DNA from: Telmatospirillum sp.
GTDB lineage: Bacteria; Pseudomonadota; Alphaproteobacteria; Rhodospirillales; Magnetospirillaceae
Length of the DNA stretch: 45,164 nt
Reading direction: 5' to 3'
Assembly: GCA_031291415.1 (NCBI GenBank)
Contig: JARLJB010000228.1
Span: 1-45,164, forward strand
In this document: piece after piece, positions 9,001 through 40,192 of the stretch
How positions within the stretch are numbered: the first letter of the stretch is position 1
Layout: each line of letters opens with the position of its first letter
The notes under the pieces: model-generated
What the model was told of the DNA's origin: nothing
The model's database searches: none
Seen by the model: only the letters and a program-made list of their open reading frames with translations
Program-made: the position numbers and the translations under genes

Positions 9001-12000
9001 GACATAATTGCCGCCTCCGCCACCGGCGATGCCGTCAGCCTGTCCGGTAGCGGCCACATGGTGACCATGTCGGGTGGCGCCCTGTCGCTGGCCGACGGAT
9101 CCTCGGCCAGCCTGCTGGGCAGCGGCGACGTGGCGAGCCTGGGGACGGGCGATACTCTCCGTGTAACCGGCAACAATGACGCCATCACCGCCACCGGCAC
9201 GGGCGACGCGGTGTCGCTGACCGGCACCGGCCATACGGTTTCGATGAGCAACGGTAGCCTGTCGCTGGCCGACAACGGCTCGGCAGCGCTTTCCGGCAGC
9301 GGCGATGCCGCGACCATCGGGGCGAACGACGCCCTCAGTGTGACTGGCGGCAATGATACCGTTACCGCCACCGGCAGCGGCGATCAGGTCAGCCTGACCG
9401 GCACCGGCCATACGGTGACGATGACCGGCGGCAGCCTGTCGGTTGCCGATACCGGCGGCGCCAGCCTGTCGGGCAGCAACGACAGCGTCAGCCTGGGGGC
9501 GGGGGCGACCCTTACGGTGACCGGCGCCTCGGACGCCATCGCCGCCGGTGGCGCGGGCGACGTCGTCACCCTGTCGGGCACCGGCCATGGCGTGGCGATG
9601 AGCGGCGGATCGTTGACCCTGGCGGATGCCGGCGGGGCGGCGCTTTCGGGCAGCAACGACAGCGTGGCCCTGGGGGCCGGCGGAACCATCAGCATCACCG
9701 GGTCCTCGAACGCCGTCACCGCCTCGGGCGCCGGCGACACCATCGTGCTGTCGGGCAGCGGCGACACGGTCACCGCCAACGCCGCCACGGTCGGCCTGGT
9801 GGATGGCAGCGACGCCTCGGTCACCGGCAACGGCAACTCCGTGCAGATGGAGACGAAGAGCAGCGTCAAGGTCAAGGGCCAGAACAACACGGTCAGCGCC
9901 GGCGGCGAGGGCGACGCGGTCGATGTCGACGGCACCGCCCTGCTCGCCATGAGCAAGGGCCGCCTGACCCTGGAGCGGGCGGCGCAAGCCACGCTCGCGG
10001 GCAACGCCAACTGGATCGCCATGTCGGTCGGCGCCGCCCTGATGGTGGCCGGATCGGACGAGGTGATCGCCGCCAATGGCGACGGCACCGCCGTGACCGT
10101 CGCCGGCATCGACGAACAGGTGAGCATGGACAACGGCAGCCTGACGGTGACGGACGGCTCCCAGGCGGCGCTGACCGGCGACGGCGACGCGGCGACCTTG
10201 GGCGCCAACGTCAGGCTCAGCGTCACCGGCGCCGCGAACGCCATCACCGCCAAGGGCCTGGGCGACCAGATCACCCTTTCGGGCACCAATGAGACCGTGA
10301 TCATGAACGGCGGCATCCTGGTCCTGGCCGACGACAGCGGGGCCGCGGCCAGCGGCGACGGCAATGTCGTGGGGCTTGGCGCCAATGACGCGCTCCGGGT
10401 CGCCGGCAGCGGCAACAAGATCACTGCCGGCGGCGGCGGCGACAGCGTCGAAATCGACGGGACGCAAAACACCCTGGCGATGACCGCCGGCAATCTGACG
10501 GTCGACGCCGGCGCCGCGGTCACCCTGACCGGCGCCCAGAACAGCGCCGCCATCGGCTCGGGCGGCAGCTTGACGGCCTTCGGCTCGTCCAACCTCATCA
10601 CCGCCACCGGCGCCAACGTCACCCTGGGACTGGCGGGCACCAACGAGACGGTGACCATGGCGGCCGGCAATCTCACCTTGGCCGACAGTGGCCAGGCCAG
10701 CCTGACCGGCGGCGGCAACAGTGTCGTCATCGGGGCCAAGGCCATCCTCGCCGTCAAAGGCGTCGCCAACAAGGTGGCGGCGGCCGGAGCGGGGGCGGCG
10801 GTGTCGGTCGACGGGACCGGCGAACAGGTGGCGATGACCGCCGGTAGCCTCGGTCTCGCCGACAACAGCCAGGCGACGCTGACGGGCAGTGGCGACAGTG
10901 TGACGGTCGGCGGCAACGGCACGCTCGCGGTTACCGGAACCTCGGACCGCGTCACCGCCAGCGGCTCTGGCGACAGCATCGCGGTCACCGGCAGCAACGA
11001 CAGCGTCGTCATGAGCAATGGCGCCCTGTCGCTGGCCGACAACAGCCAGGCGACGCTGACGGGCAGCAACGACAGCGTGACCGTCGGCGCCAATGCCATC
11101 CTGTCGGTGACCGGCGACAACGATGTCATCACGGCGGGCGGCGCCGGCGACCAGATCGCCCTGGCCGGCGTCGGGACCCATGTCGGCATGAGCCACGGGC
11201 GTCTGGTCATGGCCGACAACAGCCAGGCGGCGCTCGCCGGCAGCCAGGATCAGGTGGTTCTGGGGGCCGGTGACAGCCTGTCGGTGACCGGCAACGGCAA
11301 CGCGGTCGCGGCCAGCGGCGCCAATGACACGGTCAGCCTCGACGGCACCGGCAACACGGTGCAGATGAGCAACGGCAGCCTCACCCTGGCCGACAATGCC
11401 CAGGCGACCCTGGTCGGCGGCCAGGACGGCATTTCCCTGGGCCGCAACACCGCGCTGACCCTGGAGGGCAGCGATGAGACCATTACGGTGGCCGGTGCCG
11501 GCGTCAGTCTGGCGCTGTCGGGAACCCATAATACCGTCGCGATGAACAATGGCGCGCTCGGCCTGACCGACTCCAGCCAGGCCAGCCTGACCGGCAACGG
11601 CGACATGGTGGTGGCGGGGACGGCAACCGTCTTCGGCCTGACCGGATTCTCGGATTCGATCTTCGCCGGGACCGGCAGCAAAGTGACCGTGTCCGGCGGC
11701 GGCGATCTGGTCAAGACCAGCGGCAGCGCCGTGTCCCTGGCCGCCAACGGCGGCCTGCTGCTGTCCGGCAACAACGACGCCGTCACCCTGGCGGCCAACG
11801 GTTTGCTGGGACTGACCGGCTTCTCGGACAGCATCATCGCCGGCTATGGCAGCAGCCTCAACATCACCGGTGGCAACGATACGGCGCAACTGAGCGGCGG
11901 CGTTTTCAGCCTGGGAAGCGGCGGCCAGGCCAGCCTCGGCGGATCGCTGAACGCGGTGGTGGCCGGGGCCAACAGCACGTTGGCCGTCACCGGTTCGTCC

Positions 12001-15000
12001 AACAGCATCAGCATGACCGGAACCGGCGGCACCCTGGTGCTGAGCGGCACCGATCAGACGGCGTCCCTCAGCAACGGCACGGTGGTGTTCGCCACCGGCA
12101 GCCAGGTCGGCGTGACCGCCCAGGGCCTGTCCGTGGCGGCGGCCGGCCTCACGGTCAGCGGCGGCAACGACACCCTGATGCTGAACGGCGGCGGGATCAC
12201 GCTGGCCAACAACCTCGCCCTGTCGCTGACCGGCAACGGCAACAGCCTGGCCGGCGGCGCCGGCGACAGCCTCAGCCTCAACGGGGCCAACAATGCGGTG
12301 GCCTTGAGCAACGGCACGCTGACGCTGGCGGCCAACGCCAGCGTCAGCCTCACCGGCAACAACGATCACGTCACCGGCGCCGCCGGCGCCACCGTGCTGG
12401 TGAACGGCCGGAACGACAGTGTCGCCTTGAGCGGCGGCACCGTCGGTCTTGCCGACGGATCCTGGGTCTCGCTCTCGGCGGGCGGAATGTCGGCCTCGGG
12501 CGGCGTGACCGTCGCGGGCGGCAACAACCTGCTGGCGCTGAACAACGGCACCATCACGGGAACCGGCGGCAAGCTCAGCCTGTCGGGCAGCAACGACACC
12601 CTCGATGTGGCCAACGAGACGATCAGTCTGGGCGCCAACAGCAGCGCCATTCTGGCCGGCTATGGCAACAGCCTGACCGCCCAGAGCGGCGACGTGGTGG
12701 TCCTCAGCGGCCAGTCCAACCAGGCCGCCATCAGCAATGGCACGGTGGTTTTCGGCACCGGGTCGCAGGTCGCGGTGACGGCGTCGGGGATGACCGGTTC
12801 CTGGACCGGATTGTCGGTGGCCGGCAGCAACGACGTTCTGATGCTCAACAGTGGCGGCATCACCCTGGCCAATGGAGTCAGCCAAACCGTCACCGGCGAC
12901 TACAACCGCGTCAGCGGCGGCTCCGGCGTTTCGCTGACCGTGAGCGGTGCCTGGGAACAGGCCAGCCTGAGCGGCGCAGCGATCACTTTGGGCAACGACA
13001 CCCAGTTGGCCCTGAACGGGAACAACAACAGCGTTGGCGGCGGCGCGGGCGACAGCGTCACCTTGTCGGGAAGCAACACGACAATCGGCTTCAGCGGCGG
13101 CAACATCGCCATCTACGGTGGCGGCAGCGCCACCGTCACCGGGTCCAACGACAGGGTTTCGGCCTATGCCGACAACGCCCTGACGCTGACCGGTGCCAAC
13201 ACGACGGCGACCATCGATTCGGTTCATGTCACCCTTGGCGACGCCGTCTCGGCGACCGTCGACGGCAGCAACAACACCGTCGCCGGCGGCAGCGGCGACG
13301 CGGTCTCGCTGAACGGCTGGAACAACACCGTCGGCTTCAGCGGCGGCGCTGTGCAAATGACCAGCAACAGCGGCGCCACCGTCACCGGCGACAACACCGC
13401 GGTTACCGGTGGGACCAACGACTTCGTCACCTTGTCGGGCAACCACGACAGCGCCGCCCTGACCGGCGGCACCGTCACCGTCGGCAACTCCGTTCAGGCC
13501 AGCGTCAGCGGCAATGGCAACACCATCCTCGGCGGCAGCGGCGCCACGCTGGCGGTGTCGGGGACCAACGACATCGTCGGCGTCAACAGCGCGACCGTCA
13601 GCGTCGCCGACCATGGCAGCATCGTCCTGACCGGGCGGCATGACACGGTCACGGCCGGTGGTACCGGCTCGGGCGTCAGCGTGATGGTGGCCGGGACCAA
13701 CGACACCGTGGCGGTGAACAATGCGACGGTCGGCCTCTACAACGGCTCGCAGATCAGCGTGACGGCGGCCGGGGCCAGCGTCGCGGCCAGCGGCACCAGC
13801 ATCACCGGGACCAACGATACCCTGGCGGTCGGCAGCGCTTCGGTCAGCCTGGCCGACCATGCGGCGGTGTCGCTGTCGGGCGATTGGAACCGCGTCAGCG
13901 GCGGGACCGGCGACAGCGTGAGCCTGAACGGCGTCGGCAACAGTGTCAGCGCCACCGCCGGCACGATCACCCTGGCCGACAACAGCAGCGTGACGGTGAG
14001 CGGCGCCAACGATCAGGTGACCGGCGGCAGCAATGACGTCGTCAGGTTGAACGGCGGCAACGACAGCGTCACGCTGACCAACGGCGCGGTTTCGCTGGCC
14101 GACACTATTCAGGCGACGGTCACCGGCAGCGGCAACGTGATCACCGGCGGGGCCGGCGATTCCCTGTCGGTCGGCGGCAGCGACCAGATGGTCGGGCTCA
14201 ACAATGCGGCGGTCAGCGTCGCCGACAACAGCAGCGTCACCGTCAGCGGCCGGAACGACACGGTCACCGCCGGGGCCGGCGACAGCCTGACCTTGAACGG
14301 CGGCAACGATCAGGCCAGCATCAGCGGCGGGACGGTCGGTTTCGCCGACGGTACCCAGGTTGCCATGACCGCCGGCGGCATGACGGTCGCCTCCCGCGGC
14401 CTGACGGTGACGGGAACCGGCAATACCCTGGCGCTCGATGACGGCAGGGCGACGTTGGGCTCCAACATGCAGGCCGCGATCAGCGGCGACAACGATCTGA
14501 TCACCGGCGGCACCGGCGACAGCCTGAGCGTGAGCGGCACCGGCGACGACATCGCGCTCGACAATGCCGATATCACGCTGGCCGACGACAGCGAGGCCAG
14601 GCTCTCGGGCAGCGGCAACACGCTGTTCGGCGGCTTCGGCGATACCGTGCTGATGGGCGGCATCAATAACGTCGCCTATCTCAGCCATGGAACGGTGATC
14701 TTCAATGCCGGCACCAAGGTCAATGTCACGGCGACCGGCTTCACGGTGGTGTCCAGCGGCTTGTCGGTGGTCGGCAGCGACAATGTGCTGATGGTCAACA
14801 ACGGCACGGTGAGCCTCAGCGACAATGTCCAGGCCTCGTTGACCGGCAGCAACGACAGCGTCACCGGCGGCATCGGCGACACGCTGGCCCTGACCGGCAG
14901 CGGCGACAGCGTCGGCCTCAGCGGCGGCACCGTGACGCTGGGCGACAATTCCAGCGCGACCGTCACCGGCGCCAACAACGCCATCACCGGCGGCAGCGGC

Positions 15001-17377: not shown

Positions 17378-18319
17378 TTATTCCCTGTATTTCAGAATCT
17401 GTTCTCTGGTCGGCAGCGAGGTAATCGCCCCTTTTGTCTGTACGGAAAGACATCCGGCGATATTGCCGTATTTGGTCGCCCGCAAGACCATTTCTTCCGT
17501 CAGATGGTCCGCGCGCGTCACGCCGTCCAGAAGCAGGCTCGACAGAAAACCGCCCCAGAATGCGTCGCCGGCGCCGGTTGCATCAATGGCCTCGACCTGA
17601 TGTCCGGCAACCGAAACCACCGATTTTCCAAAGTGATAGGTCGCCCCGGACGCTCCTCTGGTCACAACGACCAGGCAAATCCGGGCGTCGTCCATGAGAC
17701 GGGGAATGTTGGTCTCGCCACCGACCAGATCGACCTCTTCCTCCGAAATCTTCAGAAGATCGACATATTTGAAGACAGAGGAAATCGTTCGGGCGGAGAT
17801 CTCCTGGTCGCCGTTCCACATGAGAGGTCGATAATTCACGTCGAAGGAGACGATCTTTCCTTTCTCATGGGCAATCCGCAGCGCCTGCCGGGTTGCCTCC
17901 GCCGCCGGCGATTGCGAAAGGGAGCATGACCCGCCGTGGACTATTCTCGTCCGGTCGATGACGTCATCTTTGATGTCATCCCTGGACAGGAACATGTCGG
18001 CACCCGGTTTGCGAACGAAGGTAAACGTGCGCTCTCCGCCTTCGTGCAAGGTTACGAAGGCCATCGTCGTTACGGCATCGGCTGTCGGTTCGGTACAGAC
18101 GTTTTCGACACCGTTCGCGGTCAAGGTCGACACCAGGAAGCGTCCGAAATCATCGCGGCCGACTTTGCCGATAAAGCCGGATTTCAACCCGTTGCGGGCC
18201 ACCGCGATGGCGACATTGGCAGGCGCGCCCCCGGCGTTGCGGATGTAGCTTCCCGGTTCGTTGCCAGGCAGGAAATCGACCAGAATTTCACCGATACAGA
18301 GTACGTCCACCACGATCAC
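17378..18319 (-). CDS. PfkB-family sugar kinase (fructokinase-like)
   Basis: A 313-residue ribokinase/PfkB fold kinase, close to the usual length for fructokinases and 2-keto-3-deoxygluconate kinases. The N-terminal Gly-rich sugar-binding motif (GGAPANVAIA) is at about 30-39. FDVNYRP is at 159-165 and the KISEEE segment at 190-195. PfkB signature 2 (DATGAGDAFWGGF) is at 246-258, with D252 as the expected catalytic base. It phosphorylates a sugar with ATP in the cytoplasm. As the last gene of the sugar operon, 65 nt after the isomerase gene, its substrate is most likely the ketose that enzyme makes (D-fructose or D-xylulose); this is an inference. The start is GTG: 18319 has a GGTGA-like site, while the GTG at 18313 has AAAGG five bases upstream, so the protein may be two residues shorter. 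Confidence 0.85.
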   Translation of the reverse strand: MIVVDVLCIGEILVDFLPGNEPGSYIRNAGGAPANVAIAVARNGLKSGFIGKVGRDDFGRFLVSTLTANGVENVCTEPTADAVTTMAFVTLHEGGERTFTFVRKPGADMFLSRDDIKDDVIDRTRIVHGGSCSLSQSPAAEATRQALRIAHEKGKIVSFDVNYRPLMWNGDQEISARTISSVFKYVDLLKISEEEVDLVGGETNIPRLMDDARICLVVVTRGASGATYHFGKSVVSVAGHQVEAIDATGAGDAFWGGFLSSLLLDGVTRADHLTEEMVLRATKYGNIAGCLSVQTKGAITSLPTREQILKYRE

Positions 18320-18384
18320 CTTTATTCACCGGAGGCCGGGATATCGGCCATCGCCAGACATCTTCGGTCATGCCATTTCCCCAT

Positions 18385-19065
18385 CTATTTCGCCAGCGGA
18401 TATTCCGTGCAGAGCAACCGGTAGGGCGGTTCGTCTTCCTCTATCGTCGGAAATCTTGCGAATTGGTCCAGAAATCTGTTGTCGGCGTTGTCGTCATTGC
18501 ACATCGACACTTCGCCAAGCAGGACGGTGCCGGTTCCTGGTTGCCCAATGAATTCATGATACTGGTAGGGCCGGAGGGTCAGGCTGTCTCCTGGTTTCAA
18601 TATAATATCGACGCCGGCGGGAGCCAGGTATTTCCTGCCATCCTGGTTGATCTCCACGTCCGTGCTGTCCAGTTTTCCATCTTTGGTGGCATTGTGAAGA
18701 TGAAAAATCACATTTCCGCCGCCGCGGTTGATAATATCTTCCATCTTCTTCCAATGAAAATGCATCGGAGCGACTTGTCCTTCTTCGATCATGATCAGCT
18801 TTTCGGCATAGGTCTTCGGGTATTTCGCATTTTTTGCATTGCCGTTGCGCAGGGTAATCAAAGCGATCCCCATTTCGGCATAGTTGCCCATGCCATAGTC
18901 CGTGACATCCCAGCCCAGCATGTTGTCGCGGATCTCGTCATAGTCGTGGCCTTTCTCACGCCATTCCTCCGGTGTCCATTTCAAGAACGGTGGCAATTGA
19001 AAGCGGAGCTCGTCGACCAGTTTTTCCATTTTTCTGATCACGGCATTGATATGCGATCTCTTCAT
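18385..19065 (-). CDS. D-lyxose/D-mannose ketol-isomerase (cupin)
   Basis: A 226-residue cupin-fold protein resembling bacterial D-lyxose isomerase (EC 5.3.1.15), which interconverts D-lyxose and D-xylulose and often D-mannose and D-fructose. The expected metal ligands are visible: H102 and H104 in PMHFHWKKME, E109, and H170 in YQYHEF. The start at 19065 (MKRSHINAV) is preceded by AGGGA at suitable spacing; the frame extends upstream to 19236 but would run into the binding-protein gene. The gene lies between the sugar-binding protein and the PfkB kinase, so import, isomerisation and phosphorylation are encoded together. The family match is from memory of the motifs; which sugar is used in vivo cannot be read from the sequence. 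Confidence 0.85.
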   Translation of the reverse strand: MKRSHINAVIRKMEKLVDELRFQLPPFLKWTPEEWREKGHDYDEIRDNMLGWDVTDYGMGNYAEMGIALITLRNGNAKNAKYPKTYAEKLIMIEEGQVAPMHFHWKKMEDIINRGGGNVIFHLHNATKDGKLDSTDVEINQDGRKYLAPAGVDIILKPGDSLTLRPYQYHEFIGQPGTGTVLLGEVSMCNDDNADNRFLDQFARFPTIEEDEPPYRLLCTEYPLAK

Positions 19066-19135
19066 GATTCGATTCCCTATCTGGGCGTTCGCGAAGCGAC
19101 ACGATCGCCTGCGGCATATCGCCCGTGATCCTGTC

Positions 19136-19178
19136 GCCCCCAAGTCTCGATGAGCGGACTCATCCGGGACTTGGGGGC
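19136..19178 (-). promoter_or_regulatory. Strong intercistronic stem-loop after the binding-protein gene
   Basis: GCCCCCAAGTC (19136-19146) pairs perfectly with GACTTGGGGGC (19168-19178). Inside it, GATGAG (19149-19154) pairs with CTCATC (19159-19164) around a CGGA tetraloop. No T run follows in the leftward direction. Stem-loops here in sugar ABC operons usually protect the binding-protein mRNA from 3' exonucleases and lower expression of downstream genes. I infer the same role. Confidence 0.65.
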
Positions 19179-19195
19179 ATTGAGTGGACCGCGAT

Positions 19196-20128
19196 CTACT
19201 TGGAACTCCAGCCCTTGTAGGAGGAAATGTTGTCACGGGTGATCAGTTCGACCGGAATGAGCGTCGTCGGATTGGCCGGCGGGTGACCCTGCATGATCTG
19301 GTAGCCGACTTCGACGGCCTTTTTCGCCATCGCAAAGGGATCTTGCGCCGCCGATGCTTCGATCAGGCTGTTCTTGTCTTTCAACTGTCCTTCGATGTCC
19401 GGTGCGCCATCGACCGAGGTGATGAACAGATTGGTGCGGCCCAACTGCTTGGCGGCCAGATCGGCGCCGATCGATTGCGGGTCGTTGATCGAAAACACCG
19501 CGTCGATATTGTCAAAGGCGGTCAGCGTGCCGACCATGACCTCGAGTGCTCCTTCACGGGATCCCTTGGCGTTCTGATTGTCCGACAGGATCTTGATATC
19601 GGGCGACTTGGCCAGCACGGACTTGCAACCGTTGACCCGATCGATGACCGCGGAGACCGGCGGGCCGTTCAGGATGACGACGTTGCCCTTGCCCTTCAGT
19701 TTCTCGACGATGTACTGACAGGATTTTTCGCCGGCTTGAACATTGTTGCTGGTGACCGTCGCGTCGGCGCCCTTGCCGGAGACGTCAACCGCGACGGCGA
19801 TGATGCCGGCATCATGCAGGCGTTTCATCGCCGGTTCGATCGCCACCGGATCGACGGCATTGATGAGAACCATGTCGACGCCGGCGGCGATGAAGTTGTC
19901 GATCTGCGTGAATTGTTTGTTGAGGTCGTAATCGACGCCGCCGGCGATGACCTTGACATCCTTGTTGATGGCTTTGGCCCCCTCCTCGGCGCCCTTGACG
20001 ACCTGCACGAAGAAGGGATTGCCCATGTTGCCGACCGAAACGCCGATCGTCTTCAGATCCTTGGCCGTCGCCGGTGCCGCCAGGGCCAGGGCGGCGGCCG
20101 AAACCAACAGAAAGCATTTCTTGAACAT
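19196..20128 (-). CDS. Periplasmic sugar-binding protein of ABC transporter (RbsB-like)
   Basis: A 310-residue type I periplasmic binding protein (Peripla_BP_4, ribose/allose/galactose group). A signal peptide is evident: a Lys pair, a hydrophobic core at 6-18 and cleavage likely after APATA at residue 22. The mature start (KDLKTIGVSVGNMGNPFFVQVVKG) is typical, and TSVDGAPD and NDPQSIGADLAAK fit the ligand-binding cleft. It delivers a monosaccharide to the RbsC/RbsA-like membrane complex encoded directly upstream. GAGGAA precedes the ATG at 20128. Neighbouring enzymes suggest D-lyxose, D-mannose or a related aldose as ligand; the sequence alone does not decide. Confidence 0.9.
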   Translation of the reverse strand: MFKKCFLLVSAAALALAAPATAKDLKTIGVSVGNMGNPFFVQVVKGAEEGAKAINKDVKVIAGGVDYDLNKQFTQIDNFIAAGVDMVLINAVDPVAIEPAMKRLHDAGIIAVAVDVSGKGADATVTSNNVQAGEKSCQYIVEKLKGKGNVVILNGPPVSAVIDRVNGCKSVLAKSPDIKILSDNQNAKGSREGALEVMVGTLTAFDNIDAVFSINDPQSIGADLAAKQLGRTNLFITSVDGAPDIEGQLKDKNSLIEASAAQDPFAMAKKAVEVGYQIMQGHPPANPTTLIPVELITRDNISSYKGWSSK

Positions 20129-20195
20129 TGCGGTTCCTCGTTTTCTTGGTTGCGGATCTCCACCCGCGGGGCGGGCCGGAGCGGGGGCGCGGCGG

Positions 20196-21212
20196 TCAGG
20201 TCCGACCGCTGCGGGAATTGCGATATTTGTCGAGCGACACGGCCAGGATGATCACCAGGCCTTTGACGATCAGCTGCCAGATTTCCGAGACATTCATCAG
20301 GATCAGGCCGTTCGACAGCACGGCGATGATAAGGGCGCCGATCAGCGTGCCGAAAATGCTGCCGATGCCGCCGACAAAGCTGGTTCCTCCGAGAATGACG
20401 GCGGCAATCGCGTCGAGTTCGTATCCCATGCCAAGCTGGGCGCCGTTGGCCGACAGGGTACGCGCCGCCGCCATGGCGCCGGCAAGTCCCGCCATCAACC
20501 CGGCCATGCTGTAGGTGAACAGCAGCACCGACCAGACTTTGATGCCCGATAGCCGCGCCGCGTCCTCGTTGCCGCCGACGGCGTAAATGCGCACGCCCAA
20601 GACGGTGCGACGCAAAATGAACCAGCTGATGGCGATCACCACCAGGGCGATGACGACGAGATAGGGCACGCCGAGCACCCGCTGGTTGCCGACCCAGGCG
20701 AACGGCAGGACCGGGTTGAAAACAGTCGTGTCATTGCTCAGCAAGCGGGCGACACCACGCACGGCGGTCATGGCGCCCAGCGTGACGATGAAGGATGGCA
20801 ATTTGACGAAGGCGACCAGAGCGCCATTCAACGCGCCGAATCCCAGTCCGACCAGCATGGCGAGCGGTATGGCGAAGGCACTCAGGCTGGTCAGCGACAA
20901 GCTGACCGCCGCGACCGCCGAAACCGCCAGGATCGCCCCGACCGACAGGTCGATGCCGCCGGTCAGAATGACAAAGGTCATCCCGGCACCGAGAACGATG
21001 TTGATCGCCGATTGTTGCAGAACAATCGCCATATTGCCGGTACTGAGAAATTTGCCGGTCGCCAGTTGGAAGCCGACGCAGATCAGGATCAGGATCGGCA
21101 GCATTCCGACGACTTGAACGACTTTGCCGATTGCCTGCTTGCGGGTGTTTCTCATCGATGCGGTCCCCTGCGGCGCATTGGACTCGAGTGACAGGGGTTT
21201 TGTCGCGTTCAT
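20196..21212 (-). CDS. Sugar ABC transporter permease (RbsC-like)
   Basis: A 338-residue inner-membrane permease of the BPD_transp_2 family (ribose/xylose/AraH type), with about eight to ten hydrophobic helices. Conserved segments include ILTGGIDLSVGAILA, GALNGALVAFVKLPSFIVT and AVILGGTSFVGGIGSIFGTL near the C-terminal coupling region. The start at 21212 (MNATKPL) is chosen because GGAGG lies at the right distance; the frame itself opens nine codons earlier. It works as a dimer with the ATPase encoded upstream and the binding protein encoded downstream. Confidence 0.9.
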   Translation of the reverse strand: MNATKPLSLESNAPQGTASMRNTRKQAIGKVVQVVGMLPILILICVGFQLATGKFLSTGNMAIVLQQSAINIVLGAGMTFVILTGGIDLSVGAILAVSAVAAVSLSLTSLSAFAIPLAMLVGLGFGALNGALVAFVKLPSFIVTLGAMTAVRGVARLLSNDTTVFNPVLPFAWVGNQRVLGVPYLVVIALVVIAISWFILRRTVLGVRIYAVGGNEDAARLSGIKVWSVLLFTYSMAGLMAGLAGAMAAARTLSANGAQLGMGYELDAIAAVILGGTSFVGGIGSIFGTLIGALIIAVLSNGLILMNVSEIWQLIVKGLVIILAVSLDKYRNSRSGRT

Positions 21213-21287
21213 CGCCAATACTCCTCCAAGTGTTCTCAATCGGCTTTTGCCGCGATGTTTTTGTGGTCGGCGTTGGGCGAGGCGCGT

Positions 21288-22829
21288 TCAGAGCTCGACG
21301 CCGGTGGCGTAGGCCATGATGTTTTCCTGGGTGATTTCTTTTCCGCCGCCGCCGCCGACCTCACCCTCGATGCGGCCTTCCCGCATGACCAGGACGCGAT
21401 CGCAAATGCCGATGATTTCGGGCAGTTCGCTGGAAATCACCAGAACGCCCACTCCGCGCTCGGCAAGCTGGTCGATCAGCCGGTAGATCTCCTGCTTGGC
21501 GCCGATATCGATGCCGCGTGTCGGTTCATCGAGGATCATCACCCGCGGGCCGACCTCCAGCCATCGGGACAGCAGCACCTTTTGCTGGTTGCCCCCGGAC
21601 AGATGGCCGACATCCAACGTCGGCGTCGCGCCACGGATGGAGAGGAGCGAGAGTGCCGATATCGTCCGTTGCGACGCGCGGGCCCGGTTCAGCACGCCAC
21701 CGGTGAAGGCGTCGCGGTCAATGACACCGAAATTGATGTTGTCGTGACACGACATGGCAAGAAACAGCCCTTGCGCCTTGCGGTCCTCGGTCAGATAGGT
21801 GATTCCTGCGGTCAGAGCGTCGCGCGGCGAACGGATATCGAGGTCCTTGCCGGCCAAAGCGATGGTCCCGCCGTGACGTTTGTCGGCGCCGTAGATCAGA
21901 CGCGCCAATTCGGTCCGGCCGGAGCCGACCAGGCCGGCGATGCCCAGGACCTCGCCCTCATGAAGGGTCAGGCTCGATGGATGCACCCGCCGTCCGCCGT
22001 CGGTGACGTCGTGAACCTCCAGCACGACCGGACCCAAAGGGCGCGCCGCCCGGTTCTCATGTTTGTAGAAACTGTTGATTTCGCGGCCGACCATCATCCG
22101 GACCAGCCGGTCGGCGGCGATTTCGTTCTTCTCCAGCGTTCCGACATAGCAGCCGTCGCGCAGAACCGTCACTCGGTCGGATAATTCGTAGACTTCGCCC
22201 ATCCGATGACTGATGTAAATGATCGCCAAACCTTCGTCGCGCAGTTGTTTGATCAATGAGAAAAGACGGTCGGTTTCGCGGGCCGACAGCGCGGTGGTTG
22301 GTTCGTCCATCACCAGAATTCGGGATTTTGCGTGAATAGCGCGGGCGATTTCGACCATTTGACGCTCGGCGATCGACAGGGTCGAAACAACGGTCGTGGG
22401 CCCGAAATCAGCCCCAAGGCGTTCGAGAACCGCGCGGCAGCTCTGTTCCATTTCCTTGCGGGAGATCAGCCCTTTGTGCGAGATTTCACGGCCGAGATAG
22501 ATGTTTTCGGCAACCGTCAGATTGGGAGCCAGGCTTAACTCCTGGTAAATGATCGATATCCCCAGTTCGCGGGCGACCAGGGGACTGGTGACGTCGATCT
22601 TCTTGCCGTCGACCAGAATGTCGCCGCCGCTGTCGGCCTGATAGGCGCCCGACAGCACCTTCATCAAGGTGCTCTTGCCGGCTCCGTTTTCCCCCATCAG
22701 CGCCAGGATCTCGTGGCTCCAGGCCTTCAATTCGACGCCGTCGAGCGCTTTGGTGCCCGGAAACGTCTTTGAGATTCCCCGCATTTCGAGAATTGGTTGG
22801 CTTCTCTCCGGCATTGCCGATGACAGCAT
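21288..22829 (-). CDS. Sugar ABC transporter ATP-binding protein (RbsA-like, two ATPase domains)
   Basis: About 513 residues with two fused ABC ATPase domains, as usual for the ribose/xylose/galactose class. Domain 1 has a canonical Walker A (GENGAGKST), a Q-loop in YQELSLAP, the signature [14 protein letters not shown] and Walker B ILVMDEPT. Domain 2 has the degenerate Walker A typical of the family ([12 protein letters not shown]), signature [15 protein letters not shown] and Walker [11 protein letters not shown]. It powers uptake through the adjacent permease. The start is placed at the ATG at 22829, five bases after GGAGG; the GTG at 22841 would put that site inside the gene. Confidence 0.92.
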
Positions 22830-22861
22830 CCGTTCCTCCACCTTTTGTGCTTGTCGAGATC

Positions 22862-22881
22862 CGGCCGCCAGGCCGTTTTTT
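22862..22881 (+). terminator. Plus-strand intrinsic terminator-like hairpin inside a leftward operon
   Basis: CGGCC (22862-22866), loop GCCA, GGCCG (22871-22875), then six Ts (22876-22881). It reads as a short Rho-independent terminator only on the plus strand, against the direction of the surrounding genes, in the 111-nt gap between the regulator and the ATPase gene. It could stop antisense transcripts, or be chance. Confidence 0.4.
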
Positions 22882-22940
22882 ACAGGCAGTCTTTGGTGCT
22901 TAAGTCGAGGTACCGTATAAAAATTGAATGTGGGGTCGGG

Positions 22941-23939
22941 TTACCGGCAACCGCAAGAATTGCGGATGACCAGCGACGCCGCGAGGCGCAACGTGCGGCG
23001 TTTCCCGTCATAATCCTTGATGCGATCCATCAGCAGCGATGCCGCATGCCGGCCAATTTCCTGGCACGGCTGGGCGATCGTCGTCAGCCGTGGTTCGAAA
23101 TAGTCGGCCCATTCAAAGTCGTCGAAACCAATCAGGGCCATGTCATCGGGAACGCGTAGCCCGGCTTGGCGCAAGGCGCGCATCGTTCCAACCGTCGCCA
23201 GATTGTTTCCGGTGGCGATGGCCGTCGGCGGCTTGGGCAATGCCAGCAATCGGAAGGCGGCGGCGGTCACAGCGTCCAGATCGCCGTTGCCGACCTGGAG
23301 CAATGCCATGTCGTCGTCCAGGCCGCGGGCCAGGACGGCATCGCGAAATCCCTCCGCCCGTTCCAGCGAGGTGGCAAAGCCGGGTTGTCCGCCGACAAAG
23401 CCGATGCGCCGGTGCCCATGACCGGCAAGATGCTCGACGACCATCGCCATCGCCCGGGCATTTTGCACGCAAACCTGGTCGAATTCGGGCGATCCGGCGC
23501 GGTCGACCAGAACGCAGGGAACCCGGTTATCGCGCAGATAGTCCAGGGCTCGCTGCTCGGAGGTGGCGGCCGGCGCCAACAAGACGCCGTCGACGCGCCG
23601 CTGGTGCAACCCACGGACAACCTGCAGCTCATGCTCGGGATCGTCATGGGTGTCGCAAAGGAACACCATCAGTCCCAGGCGGTCGCATTCGCGTCCAATG
23701 GCACAAATGATATCGCTGAAATAGGGGTTGGAGATCGCCGAAAGCGCGATACCGACACTGTTGGTGGCCGACCGCGCCAGGGACCGGGCAATGGAATTCG
23801 GGGTGTACCCGGTCGCGGCGATCGCCTCGGCGACCAGACGGGTTGTTTCCGGGCTGACCGTTCTCGTCGCATTGACAACGTGAGAGACCGTTGAAACCGA
23901 CACGCCGGCGCGACGGGCAACATCAATAATGGTCGCCAT
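22941..23939 (-). CDS. LacI-family transcriptional regulator
   Basis: A 332-residue LacI/GalR-type repressor. The N-terminal helix-turn-helix (ATIIDVARRAGVSVSTVSHV) spans residues 2-21 and is followed by the hinge-helix region (TPNSIARSLA). A periplasmic-binding-protein-like sensor domain fills the rest (SVGIALSAISNPYFSDI onward). The start at 23939 has a strong GGGAGGGAG site upstream; the frame extends 15 codons further without support. It is the first gene of the leftward operon, so it likely senses the transported sugar or a phosphorylated derivative and controls its own operon through the double site at 24147-24172. The C-terminal SCGCR ending has two cysteines, of no known meaning. Confidence 0.9.
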   Translation of the reverse strand: MATIIDVARRAGVSVSTVSHVVNATRTVSPETTRLVAEAIAATGYTPNSIARSLARSATNSVGIALSAISNPYFSDIICAIGRECDRLGLMVFLCDTHDDPEHELQVVRGLHQRRVDGVLLAPAATSEQRALDYLRDNRVPCVLVDRAGSPEFDQVCVQNARAMAMVVEHLAGHGHRRIGFVGGQPGFATSLERAEGFRDAVLARGLDDDMALLQVGNGDLDAVTAAAFRLLALPKPPTAIATGNNLATVGTMRALRQAGLRVPDDMALIGFDDFEWADYFEPRLTTIAQPCQEIGRHAASLLMDRIKDYDGKRRTLRLAASLVIRNSCGCR

Positions 23940-24311
23940 TTCGCTCCCTCCCACCGGCCGTGCCACGCGGGACGGGGCCGTCAACGGGTGCGGCGGGGGA
24001 TATCACGGCTGATTGGTGCACGACCCAACGGGTCGTACAACGACCTGGATATTGCATCGGACATCTTCCTCACCCGCTTACGCCTTTTGGGTTATCTGTC
24101 GAGATATCAGGCGTCTTATGCGTGTATTTTCGTTGATGATATGCCGTCGAAACGTTTGCGCAAGCGTTTTCCTTTCGGAATTTTGAGTTATTTACGAACT
24201 AACGGTTGTCCTACCGGTTTCCCCGCCTGGCTGTGACGGCCATCCCTTGACGTGTGGTTCAGTTCGCGTTCACGCTGGCGGGAGCCGACTGGATTGCGGA
24301 CGAGGGTGACT
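23940..24311. other. Divergent intergenic region upstream of the LacI gene
   Basis: These 372 bases separate the LacI operon from the rightward DUF6429 gene. They hold the operator/promoter at 24136-24172 and a perfect inverted repeat ACGACCC-AAC-GGGTCGT at 24020-24036, a possible second operator or leader hairpin. The open frame at 23988-24236 (82 codons) overlaps these sites, resembles no family and is probably not a gene. Confidence 0.6.
24136..24172 (-). promoter_or_regulatory. Double LacI-type operator overlapping a leftward promoter
   Basis: CGAAACGTTTGCG (CG centre at 24153-24154) and CGCAAGCGTTTTC (CG centre at 24165-24166) are two overlapping CG-centred half-palindromic sites 12 bp apart, as LacI/PurR-type repressors recognise. 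Together they form a 20-bp palindrome with two mismatched positions. On the minus strand a possible -35 TTGCGC (24158-24163) and -10 TATCAT (24136-24141), 16 bp apart, overlap the operator. This predicts repression of the regulator and the whole sugar operon from a start about 190 nt upstream of the LacI ATG. Confidence 0.55.
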
Positions 24312-36551: not shown

Positions 36552-36580
36552 AGCGTGATGCAGATTTAACGCATCACGCT
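36552..36580. terminator. Perfect 10-bp stem-loop between yciB and the GntR gene
   Basis: AGCGTGATGC (36552-36561) and GCATCACGCT (36571-36580) surround a 9-nt loop. The right arm covers part of the TAG stop of the leftward GntR gene (36579-36581). It probably ends transcription from one or both sides. The 118 bases before it (36434-36551) hold an open frame ending at 36540 with an Ala/Arg-rich tail (DAAPLPAAIEAAAKRAEAR), perhaps a gene remnant. Confidence 0.55.
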
Positions 36581-37388
36581 AACGTCCGAACTTTCGCCGA
36601 ATCGCTTCGATGTCGCCGTAAAAATAGGTCGGGTTGTGCTCGGGTATTTCCAGCAGACCGGCCTCCAGGCCATCCAGATGGACGCCGAGGCTGGTCAACG
36701 CCGCCTGTGTGTCGTGGTCGCGGATGGCGTAGACGATGGCGGCATGTTCTTCGACCAGGCGGGCCATGCGGCCCGGCTCCGGCAAGGTCAGATGCCGGTA
36801 GCGATCGACCTGTAATTTGACCTGCTGAACGACTGTCCAGATGCCAGGGTAGCCGGCCGTTTCAGCGATCGCCCCGTGAAAATCCTCGTCGGCGTCGTGG
36901 AAGCCGTCGCGGTCGTCGATGGCCACCGCTTCGCGTTGGCGTTCAAGATTGGCCTCCAGCAACGCCACCTGGCTGCGTGTCGCTGTTCGCGCTGCGGCTC
37001 CGACAGCCACTTCCTCAAGAGCCCTGCGGATGACCATGGCCTCCGGCAGCGCGTCAAGCGGGATGCGGGCAACAAAAGTGCCCGACTGCGGGACAACTTC
37101 CACCAATCCTTCGGCCGCCAGTCGCAGGACGGCTTCGCGGATCGGTGTGCGGCTGACTCCGAAAATCGAGCCCAGATCTTTTTCGACGATCGGATCGCCT
37201 GGACGGCGCTGCAGGCAGACGATCTCGCGGCGCAGAGTCTGATAGATGAGAGATGCCGCGCTATTGCCGGTGCCGCCGGGCGCCGGGCGCAAAAGGGCCG
37301 GGCGGGCGTTACGGGTTCGTGGTCGCCGTCCGGCGGGCGCGTCGTCGGTTACGGTCGTGGAATCGGGATCGTCCGGTGTTGCCGCCAT
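36579..37388 (-). CDS. GntR-family regulator, FCD (FadR-type) subfamily
   Basis: A 269-residue regulator. After a disordered Pro/Arg-rich N-terminus of about 40 residues comes the winged helix-turn-helix (IYQTLRREIV, PGDPIVEKDLGSIFGVSRTP, IREAVLRLAAEGLV). The all-helical FCD sensor domain follows, with likely metal ligands in DEDFHGAIAE, VEEHAAIVYAI and GVHLDGL. FCD regulators often control uronate and organic-acid catabolism. Its nearest partner is kduI, 307 bp upstream on the same strand, so it is probably the kduI regulator. The palindrome at 38868-38885 is a candidate binding site. Confidence 0.88.
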   Translation of the reverse strand: MAATPDDPDSTTVTDDAPAGRRPRTRNARPALLRPAPGGTGNSAASLIYQTLRREIVCLQRRPGDPIVEKDLGSIFGVSRTPIREAVLRLAAEGLVEVVPQSGTFVARIPLDALPEAMVIRRALEEVAVGAAARTATRSQVALLEANLERQREAVAIDDRDGFHDADEDFHGAIAETAGYPGIWTVVQQVKLQVDRYRHLTLPEPGRMARLVEEHAAIVYAIRDHDTQAALTSLGVHLDGLEAGLLEIPEHNPTYFYGDIEAIRRKFGR

Positions 37389-37695
37389 CTGGGATCACCA
37401 TCGCTGTTTCGGGGTGGGGGAAGACGAGGCGCCGGCTTGCGCCTCGCCTCCCGTCAACAATGTCGATCGTCTTTCTAGAGGTCCTTCTGAATGAGATAAC
37501 GCTCTAGAGCCTGTCGTCAGCTACGGTTCTTCTGTCACATTTTCCCGTCATTCCCGCGAAAGCGGGAATCCATGCCACAACAACTATCTTTTGTTGTATG
37601 TCCATCGTTTTTTCCAACCATGGATCCCCTCTTTCGCGGGGATGACGACTGCAAAATACCCGCAGACGAACCTTTGACGTAACTGACGACACACC
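37389..37695. other. Gap between kduI and the GntR gene
   Basis: These 307 bases contain the inverted repeat at 37546-37647 and no gene. The frame across the repeat (37504-37692) encodes the HPRERGDPW and WIPAFAGMT strings that repeatedly appear as false proteins translated from this repeat class. Confidence 0.7.
37546..37647. repeat. REP-like inverted repeat (GCGAAAGCGGGAATCCA type)
   Basis: The left arm CGTCATTCCCGCGAAAGCGG (37546-37565) plus GAATCCAT faces ATGGATCCCC plus TCTTTCGCGGGGATGACG (ending 37647). An inner ACAACA...TGTTGT pair lies in the loop. This repeat class is widespread in proteobacterial intergenic regions. The same core is buried in the centre of 24641-24840. Confidence 0.85.
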
Positions 37696-38532
37696 CTAGC
37701 GGAGGTCAGGAACCTTCACGTGATCCATGTCGTCGAAAACCTGATTTTCGCCGACCATGCCCCAAATGAAGGTGTAGGCCTTGGTGCCGACGCCGGCGTG
37801 GATCGACCAACTGGGAGAAATGACCGCCTGCTCGTTCTGCACGACGATGTGCCGCGTTTCCTGCGGTTTACCCATCATATGGAAGACGACATTGTCGGAG
37901 TCCATGTTGAAGTAAAAATAGACCTCCATGCGCCGCTCATGGGTGTGGGCCGGCATGGTGTTCCACATGCTGCCGTCTTCGAGCTTGGTCATGCCCATCG
38001 ACAGCTGACAGGTCGGCAGAACCGAGGGGACGATATATTTGTAGATCGTCCGGCGGTTGGCCGTCTTGGCGTCGCCCAAAGTCGAGGGGGACGCATCGGC
38101 CAGCGTGATCTTGCGCGTCGGATAGGTCGTATGGGCCGGTGCGGAGTTGTAATAGAACTTCGCCGGAGATTTGGGATCGGTGCTGCCGAAGCTGATCTCG
38201 CGGGCACCCTGGCCGACGTAGAGGGCTTCTTCGCGAGCGATTTCATAGCGCGTGCCGTCGACGGTCGCCCAACCGGCACCACCGATGTTGATCAGTCCGA
38301 GTTCCCGGCGCTGCAGGAAAAAGTCGACGCCGAAGTTTTTGCCCAGCGAGTCCGCAAGCGTGATTGCCTTGGCGGCCGGCATGATCCCGCCGAAAACGAT
38401 GCGATCGATGTGGCTATAGGTCATGGTCAATTCGCCCGGGCGGAAGATCTCTTCGACCAGGAATTCGCGACGCAGCCCTTCAGTGTCCAGCGTTTTCGCA
38501 TGGTCGCTGTGGATGCTTTGGCGGGTTTCCAT
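37696..38532 (-). CDS. kduI: 5-dehydro-4-deoxy-D-glucuronate isomerase
   Basis: A 278-residue KduI of normal length, a cupin-fold zinc enzyme (EC 5.3.1.17). It converts 4-deoxy-L-threo-5-hexosulose uronate, from pectin or unsaturated uronides, to 3-deoxy-D-glycero-2,5-hexodiulosonate. The zinc site is visible as [15 protein letters not shown] (His, His, Glu) and SIHAGVG (His). Family blocks [34 protein letters not shown] and [13 protein letters not shown] are intact. The ATG at 38532 follows GGAGAGAG. The usual partner kduD is not in the window. It is probably regulated by the GntR protein encoded downstream. Confidence 0.94.
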
Positions 38533-38922
38533 AAAACTCTCTCCTTCTTGAGACTGGGCTGCTATTCCATCGCGTTGGTTGTGCCGGGGGCAGGGCCAAG
38601 GCTAGGCAGCAGAATGAAAATGAACCATATTACAGGCCCGTCGGCAGACAGGACGTCGGGATGATAACGGCGGCAGTCCTCGCCCGGAGGCGGCTGCCGG
38701 TGTCGCCGTCGCTGTGGCGGGAACGCAAATGATGGAACAGGGCCCCGGCAACGGCGAAGCAGTCACCATCTTCCTAGGCCTCTGTCAAAAGTGCGTTCGA
38801 TCGTCATCCGTACCCGCCGCCCCACTGGAGAGCGAGGCTAACTGCTATTTTTGCAGTGTCGCAGAGGTATCTGATATATCAGATATATAAAAATGTCAAT
38901 GCGGAGGGTTGGTGGTCAGTTC
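38533..38922. other. Divergent intergenic region between kduI and the radical SAM gene
   Basis: These 390 bases hold the promoter/palindrome at 38851-38885 and, near 38619-38624, a TAATAT that could be the -10 box of kduI on the minus strand. I see no gene. Confidence 0.5.
38851..38885 (+). promoter_or_regulatory. Promoter overlapped by 18-bp perfect palindrome
   Basis: TATCTGATATATCAGATA at 38868-38885 is perfectly self-complementary, with the TGATATATCA core expected for an FCD-type GntR operator. A -35 TTGCAG (38851-38856) and -10 TATATC (38875-38880), 18 bp apart, read toward the radical SAM gene, so a bound repressor would cover the -10 box. Confidence 0.55.
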
Positions 38923-39792
38923 ATGCTTTACGATCTTCCTCTTTATCGGCCGCCTTCGGAAGGTGACAATCTTATCGTCCAGGTGACGCTTGGTTGCAGC
39001 TACAATCAATGCAGCTTCTGCGCCATGTACAAAGACAAAGACTATCGGGCGTTGCCGCTACCGGCCGTATTCGCGGACATTGACCAACTGTCTTTGCTGT
39101 ATCCGCAGGCGCACAGGGTTTTTCTCGCCGATGGTGACGCACTGACCTTGCCGACTGACCATCTTCTGGCGATCGCCGATCGCTTGGCGGCACGCTTTCC
39201 CAATTTGCAGCGCATTTCGACTTATGCCACGCCGATTGGTCTGCTGCGCAAAAGCGACGACGAGTTGGCCCGCCTTAAAAGCAGGCGTCTATCCCTCGTC
39301 TATGTCGGGATCGAGTCCGGATCGGCCGAGGTCTTGCGACGGATCGCCAAAGGCGTGAGCGTTGAAAATCTCGTCCTGTCCCTGGTCAAGGCGCGCCGTG
39401 CTGGACTGAAGATTTCGGCGACGGTGATCCTCGGTCTTGCCGGCAAGCGGCTGGCCGACGAGCATATCCTTGCCACGGCCGACCTGATCAACCGGGCACC
39501 GCCGCATTTCCTGTCGACTTTGCAACTGATCCTGCCCGATACCGTGGCAGCCGGTTTCCTACGCCGTTGGGAGGGCGAGTTCGTCTTTCAGGACGATCGG
39601 GCCATTTTGGCCGAGCAAAGGCTGCTTATCGCGTCTCTGTCGCCTCCGCGGCCGGTGATCTTCCGTTCGAACCACGCCTCCAACTGCCTGGCCCTCGAGG
39701 GAACACTTCCGAAGGACCAGACCCGGTTGTTGACGGAGATCGATCAGACGATGGACGGCGACCTGCGACCAAACTGGATGCGAGGTCTGTGA
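38923..39792 (+). CDS. Radical SAM protein
   Basis: About 289 residues with a radical S-adenosylmethionine core. The iron-sulfur cysteines are CSYNQCSFC (C25, C30, C33), i.e. C-x4-C-x2-C, one residue wider than the textbook CX3CX2C but usual, as I recall, for this MLYDxPLYRPPSE subfamily. The Gly-rich LADGDAL, YVGIESGS and VILGLAGKRL segments fit the partial TIM barrel. There is no extra cluster or substrate domain, so the reaction is unknown. I chose the ATG at 38923 (MLYDLPLYRPPSE) by family resemblance; ATGs at 38893 and 38899 lie too close to the predicted promoter. Transcription may be controlled by the palindrome just upstream. Confidence 0.85.
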   Translation: MLYDLPLYRPPSEGDNLIVQVTLGCSYNQCSFCAMYKDKDYRALPLPAVFADIDQLSLLYPQAHRVFLADGDALTLPTDHLLAIADRLAARFPNLQRISTYATPIGLLRKSDDELARLKSRRLSLVYVGIESGSAEVLRRIAKGVSVENLVLSLVKARRAGLKISATVILGLAGKRLADEHILATADLINRAPPHFLSTLQLILPDTVAAGFLRRWEGEFVFQDDRAILAEQRLLIASLSPPRPVIFRSNHASNCLALEGTLPKDQTRLLTEIDQTMDGDLRPNWMRGL

Positions 39793-39808: not shown

Positions 39809-40192
39809 TTAGCGAACGCGCCGCCGGGCGACCGACCGGGGAACTCTGGCAAGACGGGTGCGCAGGCCTGATCTCGGTTTTTCGCGACGGCCTCGGTTGA
39901 GCAGGTAGACCACCAAGACCGGCGGGACAAGAATCAAGCAGACTTTCTCCGTCCAGATCAGAAAGCTGTCGTAGCCTTTGGCGATGATGATTGCTTCCTT
40001 GCAGTCGTAGCGCTGCTGGAAACTGCCGCCGCAAGACTTCATCTGGCTTTCGACGTCGGAGGAACGGAAACCGAATTGATCCGGATCGACGTCGAGAAAT
40101 TCCAGATAGAACGTCGCCCCCATCCAAATGGCGCATGCAAGCATAGCAAACCATCGAAGCATCGTACGGATGTTGGTCGTCTGCACTGTCAT
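39809..40192 (-). CDS. Small membrane protein of unknown function, two helices
   Basis: A 127-residue protein I do not recognise. Hydrophobic helices lie at about 11-33 and 77-99, with a loop of some 43 residues between them that carries two cysteines (C54 and C64), possibly disulfide-bonded if the loop is periplasmic. The C-terminal 28 residues are strongly basic (about ten Arg), suggesting a cytoplasmic tail contacting phospholipid head groups or nucleic acid. The ATG at 40192 follows GAGAAGAAG. It is convergent with the radical SAM gene, with a small TTCGC-TTTA-GCGAA hairpin over its stop codon (39803-39816), and divergent from the DAHP synthase gene. Confidence 0.65.
   Translation of the reverse strand: MTVQTTNIRTMLRWFAMLACAIWMGATFYLEFLDVDPDQFGFRSSDVESQMKSCGGSFQQRYDCKEAIIIAKGYDSFLIWTEKVCLILVPPVLVVYLLNRGRREKPRSGLRTRLARVPRSVARRRVR

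Follow-up and report, generated by a model that had tools for sequence, protein, structure and literature searches.

Among the closest described systems to the locus considered here are UxuR and ExuR of E. coli, hexuronate repressors of the FadR/FCD group. The locus lies in a 45,164-nt stretch of Telmatospirillum sp. DNA (hereafter, the window) that encodes a GntR-type regulator beside kduI. Like UxuR and ExuR, this regulator combines an N-terminal GntR winged helix with a C-terminal FCD domain, the composition that places it in the FadR/FCD group, and the two systems are also alike in having the regulator gene in an operon with a uronate gene and an AT-rich palindromic operator at the promoter. 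Identity of the regulator with E. coli-type UxuR or ExuR was rejected, however, because it scores far below the NCBIfam equivalog cut-offs (33.9 of 442 bits for UxuR, NF007588; 19.4 of 396 bits for ExuR, NF008571).

Operators of the FadR subfamily carry conserved GT and AC spaced by 2-3 nt, with named exceptions, according to the available portion of PMC4494728. In contrast, the GT-N2/3-AC arrangement is absent both from the site in the window and from the symmetrised consensus of 108 related sites described below, and the core here is TRATATATYA. For the Rhodobacteraceae, the accessible part of PMC5507952 presents a prediction of a novel GntR-type UxuR that governs uxaC-type glucuronate genes; this too is an alphaproteobacterial GntR protein with a predicted uronate role, and it is in this description that its likeness to the present regulator lies. 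No mention of the motif was found in the literature, within a scope of titles and the beginnings of abstracts that excluded supplements, and in the portion of PMC13050008 that contains the motif string it forms part of a PCR primer.

The regulator and its predicted operator fall within known FCD-type GntR regulation, as a further member. Comparison of genomes makes it highly probable that a GntR-type repressor uses the palindrome as the operator of its own kduI-gntR operon, which serves the catabolism of pectin-type sugar acids; the radical SAM gene now standing next to it most likely became adjacent through loss of the genes between.

The locus and its predicted promoter

The features of the locus are as follows.

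36579..37388, minus strand: gene for the FCD-type GntR regulator, the proposed repressor binding the palindrome (PF00392, 63.1 bits, cut-off 27; PF07729, 99.3 bits, cut-off 24.3; syntenic orthologues 73% identical in G003, 75% in G001 and 81% in G004)
37505..37665, no strand: dispersed repeat between kduI and gntR, with GTCATTCCCGCGAAAGCGGGAAT-type ends (repeat matches in the assembly; gap comparison)
37696..38532, minus strand: kduI, 5-dehydro-4-deoxy-D-glucuronate isomerase (NF002091, 447.2 bits, cut-off 250)
38868..38885, no strand: perfect palindrome of 18 bp and putative operator for the FCD-type GntR protein, with core CTGATATATCAG at 38871-38882 (sequence search; conservation upstream of kduI in the four kduI-bearing genomes of the genus)
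38871..38876, minus strand: TATCAG, possible -10 element of kduI, 17 bp from TTGACA and within the palindrome (a weak match, spaced by eye)
38894..38899, minus strand: TTGACA, putative -35-like box of the kduI-gntR promoter (TTGACA or TTGACT 11 bp before the core in four genomes)
38923..39792, plus strand: radical SAM gene, an intact open frame with probable start at ATG 38923 and a neighbour probably by deletion (PF04055; orthologue starts; 13 of 30 loci with gor immediately upstream)

A sequence-only reading had placed a GntR gene about 1.5 kb from the palindrome, beside kduI, and this was borne out, as the gene starts at 37388, approximately 1.48 kb away, and encodes both domains. The longest radical SAM open frame (299 aa) opens with ATG 38893, a codon that shares bases with TTGACA read in reverse complement. 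Alignments with orthologues begin at about residue 4-12 of this frame, mostly at residues 8-12, and most orthologues have their own start near residue 11; the start is therefore probably ATG 38923, which lies 37 bp from the end of the palindrome. To the right of the radical SAM gene is a small ORF on the minus strand (39809-40192) without a Pfam match, followed by a plus-strand gene for a class II DAHP synthase. The dispersed repeat has at least 48 matches in the assembly, a count that includes itself and short pieces. With the repeat, the gap between kduI and gntR is 308 bp, as opposed to about 15 bp in G001 and G003, and co-transcription of gntR may therefore be weakened.

Elsewhere in the window, a 5687-aa ORF (241-17304) with DUF4214, RTX and DUF3060 matches resembles a giant repeat protein and is opposed by a 4613-aa open frame on the other strand, and a sugar cluster on the minus strand (17378-23984) consists of a PfkB kinase, an ABC transporter ATPase and a LacI-type regulator.

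The palindrome TATCTGATATATCAGATA is exact and perfect over 18 bp, as had been claimed. It is the longest perfect palindrome in the window and has no second match there with up to three mismatches; a match arose in 1 of 100 dinucleotide shuffles. In first-order Markov simulations of the window (60 simulations), perfect palindromes of at least 18 bp appeared at 0.3 per window and were present in 27% of them, while for the 390-bp intergenic region the rate was 0.15% of 20,000 simulations. The palindrome is thus notable for its position and not for the window as a whole. A search for the palindrome elsewhere in the genome, which had been suggested as a check, found its inner core TGATATATCA only once in the 7.14-Mb assembly of the window (G000; 7,144,923 bases, 412 contigs), and the full 18-mer at up to three mismatches has one further site, which is asymmetric. 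An Rfam scan of 37380-39000 gave no match.

Four genomes of the genus were compared with respect to this promoter: G000, G001 (Rhodospirillales MAG bin_346), G003 (Telmatospirillum siberiense 26-4b1) and G004. All four contain gntR-kduI, and a fifth (G002, 0.9 Mb) has neither gene. Upstream of kduI, and in its direction, each of the four has TTGAC(A/T)-N11-CTRATATATYAG, such that TTGACA or TTGACT stands 11 bp ahead of the 12-bp core in every kduI-bearing genome of the genus that was searched. The core is CTGATATATCAG in G000, G001 and G003, and CTAATATATTAG in G004, where both arms are altered and the symmetry is kept. Correspondence among the four copies was established by eye and from blastn matches (E values of 2e-8, 3e-7 and 1e-4), as a multiple alignment misplaces the G000 copy. 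Because the core is conserved upstream of kduI behind TTGAC(A/T) in four genomes, the site belongs to the minus-strand promoter of kduI-gntR, although it had originally been assigned to a radical SAM promoter. Overlap with a radical SAM -10 box, which was part of the same proposal, found no support, since a scan of 38500-38960 on both strands gave no sigma-70-like consensus promoter; the best plus-strand candidate by eye is TTGCAG-N18-TATATC. The negative promoter scan, the lack of a GT-N2/3-AC core and the distance of the site from kduI count against the operator reading; in G000 this distance is about 344 bp to the kduI start, as compared with 195 bp in G001, 182 bp in G003 and 80 bp in G004.

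The frequency of 27% among simulated windows would be compatible with the palindrome being a chance product of AT-rich promoter DNA. However, the same promoter conserves the site in four genomes, with a symmetric change in one of them, and the motif recurs with the same regulator. This conservation, the strict-core counts and the recurrence at GntR loci led us to reject chance, the probability of which we regard as negligible.

Recurrence of the motif with the regulator

Recurrence was examined in 77 related loci from named genomes (48 from Azospirillum and 14 from Bradyrhizobium), fetched with an alignment of six GntR homologues from among the best 80 of a larger number of matches. The core was searched as [CT]T[AG][AG]TATAT[CT]A[AG] or its complement form, with the reversed pattern as the control. 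It was found at 108 sites in 66 of the 77 loci (883,549 bp), none of them counted twice through overlapping loci, and the control was found at none; 11 loci were without a core site. Because the loci are related and the expression was fixed after the first sites had been seen, these counts represent association and not independent trials.

Core sites were present within 400 bp upstream of uxaC (22/24), kduI (13/21), kdgK (7/17) and gntR (49/93), and upstream of EamA-type genes (1/15), uxaA (0/21) and kdgA (0/12) at the frequencies given; the last of these probably sit inside operons. At 39 of the 77 loci, a core site lay no more than 350 bp from the anchor GntR gene, and the lack of one at the other 38 is explained in part by sites that precede a neighbouring operon. 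Without any preset motif, the octamer TAATATAT was found in 48 of the 77 upstream regions of anchor GntR genes, and CTAATATA, ACTAATAT and TACTAATA were found in 43, 41 and 40 of them, respectively, while none of the four occurred in the background stretches, 75 of 77 of which were of full length. The symmetrised consensus of the 108 sites is ATAYTRATATATYARTAT; the site in the window agrees with this consensus over the inner 12 bp but not in the triplets on either side.

The core was present at all seven loci of close GntR homologues that were examined (E <= 1.3e-28, counting that of the window), in four cases preceding kduI and more than 500 bp from gntR, while it was found at none of the 13 examined loci of more distant homologues, which served as a negative control; homologues of intermediate similarity (E from ~1e-44 to 1e-29) fall outside this comparison. 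These observations bear upon the idea that the main binder is another FCD-GntR paralogue and not the product of the adjacent gene. The assembly has 28 GntR matches, of which three others are listed at 38% identity or more, and more than one GntR gene is present at several of the orthologue loci. Nevertheless, among the loci examined the motif accompanies the close relatives and not the distant ones, and gntR itself is part of the operon predicted to be governed by the site, so that a paralogous binder is unlikely. Together, the four-genome footprint, the recurrence with orthologues and the absence from the 13 distant-homologue loci lend good support to the palindrome being a predicted FCD-type GntR operator, as the sequence-only reading had suggested.

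In Bradyrhizobium, 13 of 14 loci have a site. The reference search recognised only gntR in these loci, and all 14 have behind gntR a DctP gene whose product is 34-38% identical to G000 DctP. Because nothing else was recognised there, a uronate link is not established for the Bradyrhizobium sites. Across the full set, a homologue of G000 DctP at 46% identity or more was present in 19 of the 77 loci.

For genome-wide prediction, a degenerate 16-mer at up to three mismatches could not be told from its reversed control by number of matches in G000 and in most of the other genomes, and the strict core YTRATATATYAR was therefore adopted. It occurs twice in G000, G001 and G019, four times in G003 and three times in G004, and its reversed control occurs twice in G003 and is absent from G000, G001 and G004. 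One strict site precedes kduI in each of G000, G001, G003 and G004. The second site in G000 stands directly behind TTGACA, approximately 240 bp upstream of a gene for a DctP-type TRAP binding protein (L192 4881-5855, G000:C381). A strict site also precedes the DctP gene in G003 and G004, the DctP proteins of these three genomes being 77-87% identical, and single strict sites are found upstream of kdgT in G004 (TIGR00793 above its cut-off) and of uxaC in G019. The best solved relatives of G000 DctP are 4n15/4n17, 4ln5, 4n8y and 4mhf/4mij. Among them are structures of hexuronate TRAP binding proteins, namely 4N15, which is Bamb_6123, and 4MHF, which is Bpro_3107, a binder of D-glucuronate and D-galacturonate, as given in the accessible part of PMC7660916. 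Unlike these proteins, G000 DctP has no recognised dctQM genes beside it and seems to stand alone.

Sites thus precede genes of uronate uptake and breakdown (uxaC, kduI and kdgK, together with DctP and kdgT in genus mates), as would be expected of a GntR protein of hexuronate catabolism. Four strict sites in relatives adjoin genes without a recognised uronate role, those for a DUF4440 protein (G003) and a protoglobin chemoreceptor (G001) and those at G003 C22 and G019 C6, and these give no support to the uronate reading. The G001 site is about 300 bp before the protoglobin-type chemoreceptor gene (L195 5190-6879, G001:C179), with no uronate gene recognised nearby.

The radical SAM gene and its neighbours

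The order of genes in G001 and G003 is gntR-kduI, a C45 acyltransferase-like gene, gor and the radical SAM gene, which follows gor by 15-20 bp. The gor product is a glutathione reductase (TIGR01424 above its cut-off), and the C45 acyltransferase-like gene is below family cut-offs. In G004, other genes stand between kduI and the radical SAM gene. In the window, the interval between 38532 and 38923 contains neither gor nor the C45 acyltransferase-like gene, and no counterpart of either was found in the whole assembly. A search of the G000 assembly for a gor orthologue found none, the best matches being 33% identical, and the lineage of the window may thus lack its usual glutathione reductase; the C45-gene orthologue was likewise not found there, although an empty search alone proves little. 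The change is best viewed as a probable deletion in the lineage of the window, as opposed to an insertion in its relatives.

Among 30 radical SAM loci examined with flanks of at most ~1.5 kb, 13 had a gor gene upstream in the same orientation, no more than 300 bp away, and 7 had DAHP synthase in the flank. The motif was within 400 bp upstream at a single locus, that of the window itself. Its absence from the other 29 orthologous promoters had been named beforehand as an outcome that would contradict a tie between the radical SAM gene and hexuronate catabolism. The phyletic distribution (counted by hand where radical SAM matches are concerned) points in the same direction. Radical SAM matches at E <= 9.6e-69 were present in 68 of 99 genomes and KduI in 7 of 61 genomes searched, and of the 45 genomes among these 61 that carry a close radical SAM match, 40 were without KduI.

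A functional role of the radical SAM protein in hexuronate catabolism, with co-regulation through the operator, would draw on the physical neighbourhood in the genome of the window and on the location of gntR-kduI within ~4 kb of the radical SAM gene in the four kduI-bearing genomes of the genus. Against these stand the restriction of the motif to the window's own locus, the gor genes directly upstream elsewhere and the predominance of genomes with the radical SAM gene and no kduI, which make such a role very improbable. Long-standing membership of this gene in a hexuronate regulon was rejected on the loci without the motif and the genomes without KduI. Hence, the original proposal survives in part: the FCD-GntR operator stands, while the connection of the radical SAM protein to hexuronates does not.

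A different matter is whether GntR also controls the radical SAM gene in this one lineage, by regulatory capture and with no ancestral link to uronates. With kduI divergent and neither the C45 gene nor gor in between, the 390-bp intergenic region or its vicinity most likely contains the radical SAM promoter. Transcription of the gene would now have to start in this stretch, which also contains the operator, close ahead of the probable start codon. However, there is no consensus promoter on the plus strand, and the arrangement is seen in no second genome, as G001, G003 and G004 each have genes between. Capture is therefore conceivable, though somewhat doubtful.

Proposed regulation and its significance

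In the mechanism that we favor for the kduI-gntR operon, the FCD-domain GntR protein would sit as a dimer on the palindrome, which would fill the spacer and the -10 part of a promoter that begins with TTGACA. Without a uronate-derived inducer, GntR would block RNA polymerase at this overlapping leftward promoter into kduI and gntR, and binding of a uronate or a breakdown product would release it. Since gntR lies in the controlled operon, it would be autoregulated. The second operator, elsewhere in the genome, would extend this control to a TRAP-type uronate-binding protein. The radical SAM gene, for its part, would belong with gor and DAHP synthase to an older gene neighbourhood separate from kduI-gntR, and loss of the C45 acyltransferase-like gene and gor would have brought it against the kduI-gntR promoter. 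In this scheme we infer binding by GntR, repression as opposed to activation, the identity of the inducer and the exact promoter elements; repression, the effector and the exact promoter are modeled on knowledge of the FCD subfamily.

A bolder proposal, which we offer tentatively as it is probably not correct in full, is that a recent deletion of gor and its neighbor, placed in this lineage by comparison with genus mates, joined the radical SAM gene to an operator that responds to uronates, and that ATAYTRATATATYARTAT represents a type of FCD-GntR operator outside the GT-N2/3-AC rule, distributed across Azospirillum, Bradyrhizobium and Telmatospirillum. If true, a gene of unknown function would have been rewired in the lineage of the window to respond to plant uronates.

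The predicted regulation has implications for both gene systems at this locus. The comparison sets aside a false clue to the function of an uncharacterised family of radical SAM proteins and illustrates that, once two intervening genes are lost, mere proximity can suggest a connection between systems that have nothing to do with each other. For the regulator, it provides a concrete predicted operator sequence for an FCD-GntR group associated with the use of uronates by Alphaproteobacteria that live in soil or with plants.
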